Shown one piece after another: positions 3,215-22,736 of a stretch of 32,033 bases of DNA. Positions within the stretch are counted from its first letter, which is position 1. Each line of letters opens with the position of its first letter. The DNA is from Deltaproteobacteria bacterium (GTDB lineage: Bacteria; Desulfobacterota; Dissulfuribacteria; Dissulfuribacterales; UBA3076). Position numbers and translations under genes: made by a program. A model generated the notes under the pieces. It had not been told where the DNA came from, ran no database searches, and saw only the letters and a program-made list of their open reading frames with translations. The stretch spans positions 1 to 32,033 of the forward strand of contig DQXT01000080.1 in the NCBI GenBank assembly GCA_011042225.1, read 5' to 3'.

Positions 3215-3868
3215 ATGCGACAAATTATGGTCTTTATCCTTTTCAGCCTTACGGCTTTGGCTCCATCGGTTTATGGCGGGGTTTTGGGACAGTGCCCTTG
3301 AGACTGTAAAAGACATAACCGGTTCCGAAGAAGCCGGGAAAGCCGTTGGCCGGCAGGATGGCCTCACGGATCAGGATATCTTGACCGGGCTTAGGGAGGC
3401 CCTGAATTTCGGGGTGCAAAGGTCAGTGGAAAGGGCCTCGACCCCGGGAGGTTTTATGGAAAATCCAGTCATTCATATACCACTGCCGGGTCATTTTCAA
3501 AATATTGCCGGGGCCTTGAGAGGACTCGGACCTGGTTCCCAGACCGACGCCTTTGAAAAACCATGAACCGGGCCGCAGAAAAGGCCTCAGAAGAAGCGCT
3601 TCCTATCCTGGTTCAGGCCGTAAAGGATCTGAGCTTTGAAGATGCCCGTAGTTTATGGAAAGGCGGAGGTACTTCAGCTACCGACTATTTCCAAGATAAG
3701 ACCTGGCAACCACTCAGTGAAAGGTTACGACCCATAGTTCATGATACCTCCCAGACGGTGGGTGTAACCCAGGCATACCAGTCTCTGGTGGACTATCCGG
3801 CTGTAAAACCTATAGTTGCAGGCACTGACCTTGATGTGGACCACTATGTAACCGCCAAAACCCTTGAC
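3215..3868 (+). pseudogene. DUF4197 family protein, frameshifted (signal peptide and two body segments in different frames)
   Basis: Signal peptide MRQIMVFILFSLTALAPSVYGG in the frame of 3215; 'FWDSALETVKDITGS...LREALNFGVQRSVERAS.PGGFMENPVIHIPLPGHFQNIAGALRGLG' in the frame of 3273; 'MNRAAEKASEEALPILVQAVKDLSFEDARSLWKGGGTSATDYFQDKT...[17 protein letters not shown]' in the frame of 3563, the characteristic order of DUF4197. Confidence 0.75.
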
Positions 3869-4392
3869 GGGCTTTTCACGTTTCGCTGCCGGAGTCATGC
3901 TAATTCTCTTCCGGCCGTTCCGTGTCGGAGATTATGTGGGGGCAGGAGAAGTCAACGGGACGGTTAAAGGCATTACCATGTTCAATACGGTTCTCCACAC
4001 CCCTGACAACCAGGTTAATTGTGCCAAACGGCATGATTACAAGCAACGTTATCATCAATGTCACAGCCAATGACACTCGACGGGTAGATCTTGTAATAGG
4101 TATCAGCTATGACGATGAAATTACCAAAGCCAAAGAGATCTTGACCGGCATTATTAATGCTGACAAAAGAGTTCTGCCCAATCCCGCTCCGCAAATAGCG
4201 GTTTCAGAACTCGCAGACAGCAGTGTGAATCTTGTAGTTCGTCCCTGGGTAAAGTCTGAAGATTACTGGAGCGTATATTTTGATTTGACCGAAAAGATTA
4301 AGACCACTTTTGACAAAGAAGGAATCAGCATTCCCTCCCCTCAACAGGACGTCCATATTATTGCTGAAACTGAAGAGCGACAGGAAGGTTGA
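3864..4392 (+). pseudogene. 5'-truncated and frameshifted MscS-family mechanosensitive channel (pore helix onward)
   Basis: '[47 protein letters not shown]' (frame of 3864), then after a frameshift near 4010 '[43 protein letters not shown]...VRPWVKSEDYWSVYFDLTEKIKTTFDKEGISIPSPQQDVHI' (frame of 3922); N-terminal TM region missing. Confidence 0.8.
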
Positions 4393-15441: not shown

Positions 15442-16026
15442 ATGGACGATAAAGAGATAAATTGGGAGGCAATAGCTCGTTTTCTATTTGAGGGATCGAT
15501 GTTAAAGCATACGTGGCGAACGGGCTATCCGTTTCTAGGTAAAGGCAGAGAATCAGTAGCTGCCCACACCTTTGGTGTGATCCTGAGTGCTATGATGCTG
15601 GCAAAAAATGTCCCTGGAGTAGACATGGGAAAGCTCTTAAAGCTATGCCTGGTACATGATCTGCCTGAGGCCAGGACAGGGGATGCCAATGCAGTACACA
15701 AGCGGTATGTTAATATAGATGAAGAATCGGCAATCACAGATATGATTCAAGGACTTCCGGGCGGTGAAGAGATAGCGGATCTGTTATCAGAGTTTAGAGA
15801 ATGTAATACCCTAGAGTCAGTGTTGGCCCATGACGCGGATAAGCTCGATATGCTGCTTTCTCTCAAAGAACATTTGGATACCGGAAGCAGTGATGCGGCG
15901 CTCTGGATACCATACGTAAAAGAGAGGTTAAAATCAGATGGGGCCAAGGCCCTTGCCGGCGCCATTTTAAAGGAACACTGGGCGAGTTGGTGGATGAGGC
16001 AGTTGCTTGGAAACAATTTCAAATAA
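15442..16026 (+). CDS. HD-domain phosphohydrolase (YfbR/5'-deoxynucleotidase-like)
   Basis: 'ESVAAHTFGVILSAMML', 'LCLVHDLPEARTGD', 'HDADKLDMLLSLKE' HD-domain metal motifs. Confidence 0.88.
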   Translation: MDDKEINWEAIARFLFEGSMLKHTWRTGYPFLGKGRESVAAHTFGVILSAMMLAKNVPGVDMGKLLKLCLVHDLPEARTGDANAVHKRYVNIDEESAITDMIQGLPGGEEIADLLSEFRECNTLESVLAHDADKLDMLLSLKEHLDTGSSDAALWIPYVKERLKSDGAKALAGAILKEHWASWWMRQLLGNNFK

Positions 16027-16035
16027 GGAGATATT

Positions 16036-17178
16036 ATGATGGGTAGAATCAAAAATATAATGATTTTTATTTTGTTTGTATTTTTTATATCCTGTTTTGT
16101 CGCCGGATCAGTATCGGCTGATAATCAGAAACCTACAAAGGAATTTACTCTGTTTTATACTGGAAATACCCTTGGCTTCCTTGATCCATGTAAGGCTTGA
16201 GGGGGAAAAGAGATCGGGGGAATAGCCCGGCGGGTCCGGTGGATCCGCGAAAATGTTCATAAACATGGTAACTTCCTTCTTTTAGACGCTGGCAATTTTC
16301 TTTTCAGAAATGAATCAGCGCCTTCAGAAGCGGCACTTGCCAATGCAAGGCTTCTTTTAGACCTTTACAGTGATATGCGTTATACGGCCCTTTGTGCAGG
16401 GAAAAGAGATCTTGCCGGCTCGACCATGTTTTTACTGGAAGAGACTGAAAAAAGGGGTTTGCGGCCCCTGTCTTCAAACCTGCATTATAAAGGTAAGGCC
16501 GCATTTGAGCCCTATGGTATCTTTGATGTTAATGCTACAAAAGTGGGCGTCCTTGCCGTTACGTCTCCTGAATTGGATCAAAGGATAAAGGCGGATAACG
16601 TGGATGTACTCGATCCTTCAGATCGGCTTAAGTTGTTGGTTCCTGAGCTCAAGAACAGAGTCGATGTAATAATATTGTTGTCCAATCTCAGTGAAATTCA
16701 GGATATAAAGCTGCCAAGCGTTGTCGACGGCATAGATATTATTATCGAAAGCGGTCCGGGCAAACAGCGTCATCAACCATTAAAAGTGGGAAATACTTAC
16801 CTTTTGAGGGGTGACATAAAGGGCAGGTCAATAGGAAAATGTGTAGTAAAACTCAATTCACAGAATGGTATACAGGGGCTGAATAATGAACTGCATAAGC
16901 TAAAGGCAAGTCTTCCTGTGGATGAAGCCGCAATAGATAAAATAAGAGATTTAAAACAGAAATACGCCGGCACAGAGGTCATCACTACGAGGCCCGCCCC
17001 TGCTAAAAATCCCTTTTTGGAAGCAATTGAAAGGGCAAAAAGAAATAAAATGAAGGGCGATGGCACCAAGTCCCGTGATGAAAGCAATCCCTTGCTGGAA
17101 GCTATTGAAAAGGCAAAAAAGAATAGGGTAGAAGGTGGTCCATCTCGATCTGACAACTCCACAGATAACCCGTTTTAG
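16036..17178 (+). CDS. Candidate selenoprotein: secreted UshA/5'-nucleotidase-like metallophosphatase-family protein with in-frame UGA (Sec55), motif CKAU
   Basis: RBS AAGGAG at 16025-16030, ATG at 16036, signal peptide, then 'EFTLFYTGNTLGFLDPCKA[TGA]GGKEIGGIARRVRWIRENVHKHGNFLLLDAGNFLFRNE...DLYSDMRYTALCAGKRDL'. The frame is open across the TGA at 16198-16200 to the stop at 17176-17178, and family-like sequence lies on both sides. A hairpin downstream fits a bSECIS. The ORF track starts only at 16375. Confidence 0.82.
16230..16248 (+). promoter_or_regulatory. Candidate bacterial SECIS element
   Basis: GCGGGTCC-GGT-GGATCCGC: 8-bp stem (one G-U pair) with loop GGU. The loop begins after 37 nt following the TGA and has G at its first two positions, within the bSECIS consensus limits as I recall them. 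Confidence 0.65.
17008..17163 (+). repeat. Two-copy tandem repeat encoding NPFLEAIERAKRNKMKGDG... / NPLLEAIEKAKKNRVEGGP... in the C-terminus of the candidate selenoprotein
   Basis: Repeat offset of 78 nt (26 aa): AAT CCC at 17008 and 17086; a third partial 'NPF' ends the protein. Confidence 0.8.
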
Positions 17179-17220: not shown

Positions 17221-18513
17221 TTGTCTGATGACTGCATTGGTACCGTAAATAAGTGTGTCAGGTGCGGCGCATGCCTCTCTGTGTGTCCGGTATATGACGT
17301 TACCAGACAGGAGCGCCTGTCACCCAGGGGAAAATACAGGCTTATTACGGAAACTAGTGACGAAGGCCTGAATTTTATTTCAGAAGATAGAGATCCTGTA
17401 AAAAATTCGCTTCCAGTCAAGGTGCTTGAGACCTTAAAGGGCTGTGTTCAGTGCGGGGCCTGCAGCTATGTATGTCCTGCTGGGGTAAAACTAGATGCCT
17501 TAGTCAGAAATGCCAGAGCGGCAGGCGGCACAGAAGGGTTATCAAAACCATGGTGGTTATGGAATATCCTCAGAAGCCGCAGACTGGCTCCCTCGCTGGC
17601 AAAGCTCCTCTCCGGCATTCCCGGCACAAGCGGCCTTATTTGGCGTTTGATAGGCCTTAAAGACAGTCGGACTTTACGGGATAAAAAGGTTCTTCATTTT
17701 GAAATGCCTTCTCTTGCTCATAGGCCGGCCCTTTCCAGAAGGCATTTCAGATTGCCTGATCCGGGTTGCGTGGTTGATCTCAGGCCGGGACCCAGGATAG
17801 CCCTTTTTCTGGGATGCATTCAGAACTACCTCTATCCTGAAGTAGCTGAGGCCATGATCCGGTGTTTAGGAGGAAAGGTGATGATCCCATTGGGACAGGG
17901 GTGCTGCGGTATGCCCGCATGGTCGGCAGGTGCTGTGAAGGCTGCCAAAGAACTTGCACTTCAAAACCTAAAGGCCCTTGAGACCGCAAAGGCGGATTTC
18001 ATAGTTACGGGTTGCGCTGCCTGTGCCTCCATGATTAAGCAATGGCCAAAGTTGTTCAGTGAAAATGACATAGAAAAACAAATCGCCATCAATGTGGCAA
18101 ATAAGGTCAGGGAATTCAGCCAGCTTCTGGTTGAGTTAAACGCATTACCTCTCAGGATGCCAAGGGATAGATCAGCCATAGTGACTTATCATGCTCCATG
18201 TCATCAACGATTTGATCTGGGCGGTGTAGTGGAAAGCGAAGAACTGCTGGACAGGTTGTTTTCAGATGCCTTTAGGCCCATGCCTCATGAATGCTGCGGA
18301 CAGGGGGGGCTCTTTAGTATTGGAAATCCTGAGCTTGCATGGAAAATTTTCGAAAAAAGGCTTTTGGCTTGGGACAGGACAGGTGCATCTATTGTAGTTA
18401 CTACATGTTCGGGTTGTCTGCTGCAGTGGAGGGCGGGGACTGCTCATAAGACCGGAGGGCACAAGGTGCTGCATTTGGCGGAACTTATTGATGAATACTA
18501 TGAAAAAACCTAA
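17221..18513 (+). CDS. (Fe-S)-binding protein, GlcF/HdrD-like (glycolate oxidase iron-sulfur subunit family)
   Basis: Two ferredoxin-type motifs 'CVRCGACLSVCPVYD', 'CVQCGACSYVCPAG'; two cysteine-rich CCG-type domains 'LFLGCIQNYLYPEV...GQGCCGMPAWSAG' and 'YHAPCHQRFD...HECCGQGGLFS'. Start codon uncertain (TTG at 17221 or CTG at 17191). Confidence 0.9.
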   Translation: MSDDCIGTVNKCVRCGACLSVCPVYDVTRQERLSPRGKYRLITETSDEGLNFISEDRDPVKNSLPVKVLETLKGCVQCGACSYVCPAGVKLDALVRNARAAGGTEGLSKPWWLWNILRSRRLAPSLAKLLSGIPGTSGLIWRLIGLKDSRTLRDKKVLHFEMPSLAHRPALSRRHFRLPDPGCVVDLRPGPRIALFLGCIQNYLYPEVAEAMIRCLGGKVMIPLGQGCCGMPAWSAGAVKAAKELALQNLKALETAKADFIVTGCAACASMIKQWPKLFSENDIEKQIAINVANKVREFSQLLVELNALPLRMPRDRSAIVTYHAPCHQRFDLGGVVESEELLDRLFSDAFRPMPHECCGQGGLFSIGNPELAWKIFEKRLLAWDRTGASIVVTTCSGCLLQWRAGTAHKTGGHKVLHLAELIDEYYEKT

Positions 18514-20467: not shown

Positions 20468-21109
20468 ATGGAAACAAGGGCCGGATTGTCCTTAATGACG
20501 GTTGTTATATTGGGCATCTGGCTTCTTGCACTCATTGAGTTGACCTTTGCAGAGAAAAGCGCTTATGTAACCTATGTCATTGATGGCGATACTATAGTTC
20601 TCAAAAAAGGAACGAAGGTTCGCTATCGCGGGATAAATGCCCCGGAGATACCTAATGGTGAGAAAGCCGGAGAACCCCTGGGATGCACGGCCACTAAACG
20701 TAACAGGCAACTGGTCCAGACCAAGCTTGTCATGCTGGTCCAAGATGATGAAAAGCAGGATCGCTTCGGTCGGCTGTTGGCCTATGTATTTCTTCCTGAT
20801 GGTCGAATGGTCAATGAAATACTTGTTCGTGAAGGTATGGCCTTTTTATGCCTTTCCAATAAAGGTTCGCCTTTCAGCAAGAGATTGCTTGCCGCCCAGA
20901 GAGAGGCCATAGATGCCGAACGGGGTATATGGTCAATTACCCCGATCAGTCCTGAAGCTTATTATATAGGTAATCGGCAATCCATGCGCTTTCATAGGCC
21001 TTCATGTCCTTATGGGAAAAAGACCAGTAAATCAAACCGTGTGATTTTTAAATCACGAAACGATGCCTGCAAGGAAGGTTTCTGCCGATGCAAGAAATGT
21101 CTGCCCTGA
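20468..21109 (+). CDS. Secreted thermonuclease (SNase-like) with C-terminal Ada-type/Cys-rich metal-binding segment
   Basis: 'YVTYVIDGDTIVLKKGTKVRYRGINAPEIPNGEKAGEPLGCTATKRNRQLV...DRFGRLLAYVFLPDGRMVNEILVREGMAFL' SNase motifs; C-term 'FHRPSCPYGKKTSKSNRVIFKSRNDACKEGFCRCKKCLP'. Confidence 0.9.
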   Translation: METRAGLSLMTVVILGIWLLALIELTFAEKSAYVTYVIDGDTIVLKKGTKVRYRGINAPEIPNGEKAGEPLGCTATKRNRQLVQTKLVMLVQDDEKQDRFGRLLAYVFLPDGRMVNEILVREGMAFLCLSNKGSPFSKRLLAAQREAIDAERGIWSITPISPEAYYIGNRQSMRFHRPSCPYGKKTSKSNRVIFKSRNDACKEGFCRCKKCLP

Positions 21110-22304: not shown

Positions 22305-22736
22305 CTACTTAGGATGGCACTCTGTACACTTGGTAGGAGCGGCCTTGCCTTCCTTGTTTACATCCCGATGGCACCCCTTGCAATTTTCATGAATGGCTGA
22401 ATAATGGTAGCCCTTGATCTGTTCTTCCTTGCTCAACTTTGGTTTCCTTGGTGCCTTGGCTTCACTGTGGCAGGAATCACACTTCGCGACCTCGTCCCCT
22501 TCTTTCCAGACGTTCTTCCCATCCTTATACACATGGTGGCATTCGCAACAGCCTATTTGGTAATCCACATTATGTTTATGGTGGTTGAAGGTGACCAGTG
22601 ACTTTTTGTGCTCCGGGTACACCTTTGAATCCATGGTAATGGTCTCAGGTCCCTTATCAGTTGCTACAGCTACCCCAGCCATTACAAAGCCAAAACATAC
22701 CGCAACCAACAGGCATAATACCTTTTTACTACTCAT
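22305..22736 (-). CDS. Periplasmic tetraheme cytochrome c3 (class III)
   Basis: Signal peptide (VLCLLVAVCFGFVMAGVAVA) and four CxxCH motifs: CCECH, CDSCH, CKGCH, CTECH. Confidence 0.93.
   Translation of the reverse strand: MSSKKVLCLLVAVCFGFVMAGVAVATDKGPETITMDSKVYPEHKKSLVTFNHHKHNVDYQIGCCECHHVYKDGKNVWKEGDEVAKCDSCHSEAKAPRKPKLSKEEQIKGYHYSAIHENCKGCHRDVNKEGKAAPTKCTECHPK

Follow-up and report, generated by a model that had tools for sequence, protein, structure and literature searches.

An in-frame TGA predicted to encode selenocysteine in a variant lineage of UshA-like proteins that have lost the phosphatase metal site

A gene in a metagenome-derived genome of the bacterial order Dissulfuribacterales (assembly GCA_011042225.1, contig DQXT01000080.1) carries a TGA codon in the middle of its frame, and this raises the question of whether the codon is a stop, an error or a site at which selenocysteine (Sec) is inserted, and, if it is the last of these, what kind of protein is made. 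The stretch of DNA analysed here, referred to as the window, is 32,033 nucleotides long. UshA-like selenoproteins have already been published (PMC2398784, PMC9312934, PMC13188914). The CxU family, which is UshA-like in the sense of COG0737, was reported in 2008 in the GOS selenoproteome, and UshA-like selenoproteins were singled out in that paper as being without a conserved Cys-based redox motif (PMC2398784). Both the CxU form (NF041198) and a CxxU form (NF049981) appear in a 2026 review (PMC13188914). The proteins have been catalogued since 2008 without an assigned function, and a search of the literature found no functional study of the UshA-like selenoprotein family.

The gene is a single frame of 380 codons on the forward strand when TGA is translated as U, its sole interruption is the TGA at codon 55, and it ends with an in-frame TAG at 17176-17178 (Table 1). 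Translation confirmed what the initial annotation had described, namely an ATG at 16036 preceded by AAGGAG, a signal peptide, and a frame that is open to 17178 except for the TGA. A second start candidate, the ATG at 16039, is as possible as the first, and Sec is residue 55 or residue 54 depending on which of the two is used. The observation that standard ORF calling truncates the gene was reproduced with a table-11 ORF list, which yields only 16375-17178 (267 aa). The signal peptide is probably cleaved after VSA (residues 26-28), and the motif lies in the context ...TGNTLGFLDPCKAUGGKEIGGIARRVRW.... In the structural model the C-terminal tail of approximately 65 residues consists of a low-confidence linker and two predicted helices. 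Tail segments of the NPFLEAIExAK type are also present in members from other families (L008, L009, L012, L014, L015 and L021), while some other members lack them, and a search of the source genome found no second protein carrying such segments.

Table 1. Coordinates of the selenoprotein gene, its parts and its two neighbours in the window.
Feature	Position	Strand	Remarks
HD_3 / YfbR-like hydrolase, upstream neighbour	15442..16026	+	Pfam; precedes the gene at 14 of the 16 CxxU loci fetched
Shine-Dalgarno AAGGAG	16025..16030	+	Read from sequence; 5 nt to ATG 16036, 8 nt to ATG 16039
UshA-like selenoprotein gene (predicted)	16036..17178	+	380 aa, translated with TGA=U; 71-83% identity along the length within the genus
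Signal peptide (cleavage site probable)	16036..16119	+	Hydrophobic helix 3-27 in model; congener N-termini similar, ending AxA
UshA-type alpha/beta domain without metal ligands	16141..16980	+	Approximately residues 36-315; no 5'-nucleotidase C-terminal domain after it
TGA codon 55, predicted Sec of the P-C-K-A-U motif	16198..16200	+	TGA in 34 of 34 inspected clade members
SECIS-like hairpin	16230..16248	+	GCGGGTCC / GGT loop / GGATCCGC, 8 bp
C-terminal tail	17005..17175	+	Two NPFLEAIExAK-type segments (starts 17008, 17086), terminal NPF
Fer4 dicluster and two CCG domains (GlcF/HdrD-like), downstream neighbour	17221..18513	+	Pfam

A lone in-frame stop in a metagenome-derived genome is by default suspected of being a true stop, a sequencing error or a mark of decay, in which case the gene would be a pseudogene or two genes. 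The relatives argue against this. Matches in a search of the nearest 60 genomes mostly read through one TGA, and when genes were extracted and aligned, TGA occupied the column of codon 55 in all 34 inspected members of an order-wide clade. These 34 genes come from separate genomes and have no second in-frame stop, and their alignment has no Cys, other sense codon or other stop at the TGA column. The protein sequence is conserved on either side, and both sides match a single domain (NF041198, residues 16-316, E 6.8e-51); because the flanks belong to one domain and the column is constant among relatives, the TGA is not there by chance. Beyond the clade the column holds either TGA in a CxU motif or Cys in a CxC motif (PCGC/DCGC), the latter in five relatives (L068 and L069 of Myxococcota, L070 of Planctomycetota, L071 and L086) in which the spacing is off by one, and so the comparison of homologs proposed in the initial annotation returned TGA within the clade and Cys in remoter forms. 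Where relatives are without the gene, the absences are clean losses.

The source genome encodes SelA, SelB and SelD and has a tRNA-Sec gene (selC; 74.5 bits, anticodon TCA), which completes the set of four that the initial annotation had named for checking. Its SelD (L092, C6:25135-26061) has an in-frame TGA of its own, in VSGAGUASK, and is probably itself a selenoprotein. A selA match was obtained in 42 of the 46 genomes of the group, and the carriers of the gene that have no such match (G026, G029, G043 and G044) are all incomplete genomes. Given the complete selABCD set, the conserved TGA column and the hairpin described below, we consider an error or pseudogene to be extremely improbable. 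Reassignment of TGA to a different amino acid in the source organism, for which no supporting evidence was found, has a negligible probability: the code is not reassigned because TGA terminates 13 of the 29 window genes, and the tRNA-Sec carries the TCA anticodon. Extending these 13 genes by read-through revealed no further obvious selenoprotein in the window.

A SECIS-like element, another of the features proposed for checking, was found downstream of the TGA as a hairpin whose loop starts 37 nt after the codon. According to published constraints, a bSECIS element has a loop of 3-9 nt with G in the first two loop positions, a stem of 4-16 bp, a spacing of 16-37 nt and an MFE <= -7.5 (PMC13188914), and the window hairpin satisfies all of them (3-nt GGU loop, 8 bp, 37 nt, -12.3 kcal/mol). 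Synonymous recoding was used as the control because the hairpin region encodes the conserved RRVRWIR, and the stability of the window hairpin was reached by none of 500 recodings. Across 33 genes, which are related and do not amount to 33 independent tests, the mean was -8.4 kcal/mol for native sequences versus -2.4 kcal/mol for recoded ones (sd 0.35). When whole genes were scanned under the same codon control, the hairpin site ranked first in the window gene, first in three of seven other genes and within the top five in all seven. Pair counts give 80% paired, with four pairs changed on both sides. Covariation exceeds that of 500/500 shuffles, a control that leaves relatedness in, and a slide of -2 scores equally, and for these two reasons more weight falls on the codon-controlled test. 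The homologous hairpin is weak in L025, L028 and L088, of which L025 and L028 have another candidate nearer the TGA. Rfam gave no match, a result that says nothing for or against.

The claim that the TGA is read as selenocysteine is therefore supported by the homolog column, by selA, selB, selC and selD, and by the SECIS-like hairpin. Decoding of this TGA as Sec, by SelB together with the 16230-16248 hairpin, is strongly supported by comparison of sequences, and that UGA is decoded as Sec we hold to be nearly certain.

Profile comparisons place the window protein in a known selenoprotein superfamily, as a new variant lineage beyond the curated models. It scores 173.4 bits against NF041198, 'UshA-like (seleno)protein', and 75.4 bits against NF049981, 'UshA-like selenoprotein family 2', where the cut-offs are 275 and 140, and reaches neither. 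Ten diverse clade members scored singly were likewise all under both NCBIfam cut-offs (129-176 bits for NF041198; best score for NF049981, 113.5). The kind is known and the lineage lies outside the curated models, because both families are published yet the scores lie under both cut-offs. In a maximum-likelihood tree, rooted for drawing only, all 34 genes fall into a single group supported at 98/94. Pfam gave no match for the window protein. A plasmid search returned 14 weak matches only, of which the five best were below 27% identity and mostly ordinary 5'-nucleotidases.

The protein resembles NF041198 proteins in being secreted, in the shared domain, in a Sec motif that comes after strand 1 and is followed by GG-(I/L)-A-R, and in the loss of metal ligands, which is partial or large in NF041198 proteins too. 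It differs from them in having CKAU, that is CxxU rather than CxU, in belonging to a separate supported clade, and in having no C-terminal Cytochrome_C554; its match ends at profile position 309, whereas the cytochrome occupies approximately 399-518. The lineage as a whole is without this cytochrome domain and without the 5'-nucleotidase C-terminal domain. With NF049981 it shares the CxxU motif and a short, cytochrome-free form (model length 262), but it scores lower to this model than to NF041198. The SoxB thiosulfohydrolase profile (TIGR04486), also of a periplasmic protein, gives a remote match (38.9 bits, E 3.2e-10) far from its cut-off of 550, and the window protein differs from SoxB in having no metal site and in having Sec. 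A protein from another group of the phylum (L073, genome G052) has a CxxU motif (PCPTU) and has retained a larger share of the metal ligands. With 243.7 bits it falls narrowly short of the NF041198 cut-off, and it is intermediate between the forms.

A selenoprotein carried by the majority of genomes in an order-level group is missed by both NCBIfam cut-offs, and because the scores fall below them, annotation pipelines probably truncate at the UGA and lose the signal peptide and the active motif. The value of the window lineage lies in annotation and in the starting point that it gives for the functional question; the system itself is not of a new kind. The comparison offers three testable statements: that the metal site is lost, that Sec is more conserved than Cys, and that one of the two forms has a fused cytochrome which the other lacks.

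The fold is that of a phosphatase. An AlphaFold2 model of the window protein (pLDDT 83) had 5'-nucleotidases as its best Foldseek matches (3ivd, E 9.6e-24, TM 0.65), in agreement with the sequence profile, and the N-terminal domain fold is shared with UshA/CD73-type enzymes (3ivd, 2z1a, 1ush). The protein differs from these in lacking the metal and catalytic residues and, by the absence of a Pfam match, the C-terminal substrate-binding domain. The metal and catalytic set of UshA, which we take to be D41, H43, D84, N116, H117, H217, H252 and H254 in E. coli numbering, was transferred to the alignment via L087. At these positions D,H,D,N,H,H,H,H of the enzyme are N,L,N,K,R,N,G,G in the window protein, so that all eight are replaced; the remaining clade members resemble it, most of the eight being replaced throughout the clade. 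The CxU relatives are intermediate, some of them holding several His. True enzymes of the same phylum retain the residues, L085 and L087 reading D H D N H H H H and L090 deviating at the second position only.

These comparisons bear on whether the protein could be a genuine UshA-type phosphohydrolase that happens to hold Sec. Fold and profile both match 5'-nucleotidases, and the conserved neighbour is an HD/YfbR-like hydrolase. However, with every metal and catalytic residue replaced here and most across the clade, with the same residues retained in true enzymes of the phylum, and with the substrate-binding domain missing, such an activity is very unlikely, and the loss of all eight residues means that the window protein is probably not a phosphatase. 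The description 'metallophosphatase-like' in the initial annotation is apt for ancestry and fold and fails for the metal site.

The label of a C-x-x-U redox motif also needs to be narrowed. CKAU is present in the window protein, but the Cys is not universal, having been lost in at least two sublineages: it is replaced, with Sec kept, in L025 (SKSU) and in L072, L074 and L075 (HAU/HSU), and parsimony gives two Cys-loss changes inside the clade. L078 of the CxU group is without the Cys as well (PSGU). The invariant element is thus Sec and not the Cys-Sec pair, and since four clade members keep Sec without Cys, the mechanism cannot consist entirely of a Cys-Sec couple. The Sec position would lie in the cleft, as judged from sequence order; the loop that surrounds the motif is modelled less confidently (pLDDT ~61).

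As a working model we suggest that the product would be exported via its signal peptide, would adopt the N-terminal-domain fold of UshA/CD73-type 5'-nucleotidases with the dinuclear metal site gone, and would serve in the periplasm as a selenol-dependent redox or transferase protein. Its reactive group would be Sec, in the loop after strand 1 of the former active-site face and usually paired with a Cys three residues upstream, and its partner in electron exchange would be a free-standing periplasmic c554-type cytochrome, like the one fused in the CxU form. We give this reading as a whole about an even chance. The redox part is favoured mainly because a cytochrome is fused in CxU relatives, in which the domain is followed by Cytochrome_C554 at the C-terminus (as in L080 and L083), and it is doubted mainly because the Cys is lost in two sublineages. 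The link to a cytochrome draws on analogy with this domain fusion. Three stand-alone proteins of the source genome (L048, L049 and L050, on contigs C33, C112 and C24, none of them the contig of the selenoprotein gene) have several CxxCH motifs and match the cytochrome part of NF041198; one of the three was checked with Pfam, and by the same analogy they are possible partners in trans.

It is also possible, though we are inclined to doubt it, that Sec acts alone, as a nucleophile or as a soft metal or metalloid ligand, with no Cys-Sec redox pair. The invariance of Sec in the clade, the repeated loss of Cys and the PSGU motif of L078 would all be accommodated by this explanation. Most members, however, have a Cys that precedes Sec by two or three residues, five relatives have CxC, and the cytochrome fusion in CxU relatives suggests electron transfer. 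A tentative suggestion, which we likewise think improbable enough to offer with reserve, is that these proteins may form a separate selenoenzyme class, in which a metallophosphatase fold first lost its metal site, Sec then came to occupy the active-site face, and Sec may act without a resolving Cys.

The selenoprotein gene lies between a hydrolase gene and an iron-sulfur gene (Table 1). In the window, the gene preceding the hydrolase reads like holA (DNA polymerase III delta). One of the two CxxU loci without the upstream hydrolase begins at a contig end. Within the genus, and likewise in several further families, the selenoprotein gene has the iron-sulfur gene as its downstream neighbour. In two close congeners, G002 and G007 (L124, L125), the hydrolase is directly followed by the iron-sulfur gene and the selenoprotein gene is cleanly absent, which indicates that it is accessory and not essential. 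Both genomes retain selA, so that only the selenoprotein gene was lost; the explanation that such genomes make no use of selenium was rejected on the same ground.

Elsewhere in the window, two different frames (3273-3566 and 3563-3967) carry the parts of one DUF4197 gene, whose end passes into a C-terminal MscS fragment (3922-4392; PF21082), so that 3273-4392 seems to hold a frameshift and a truncated or joined gene, by either decay or assembly error. A Staphylococcal-nuclease-like protein is encoded at 20468-21109; its C-terminal Ada-type metal-binding segment scores slightly under the Pfam cut-off. A class III multiheme cytochrome c gene is found at 22305-22736, approximately 5 kb downstream of the selenoprotein gene and on the opposite strand.
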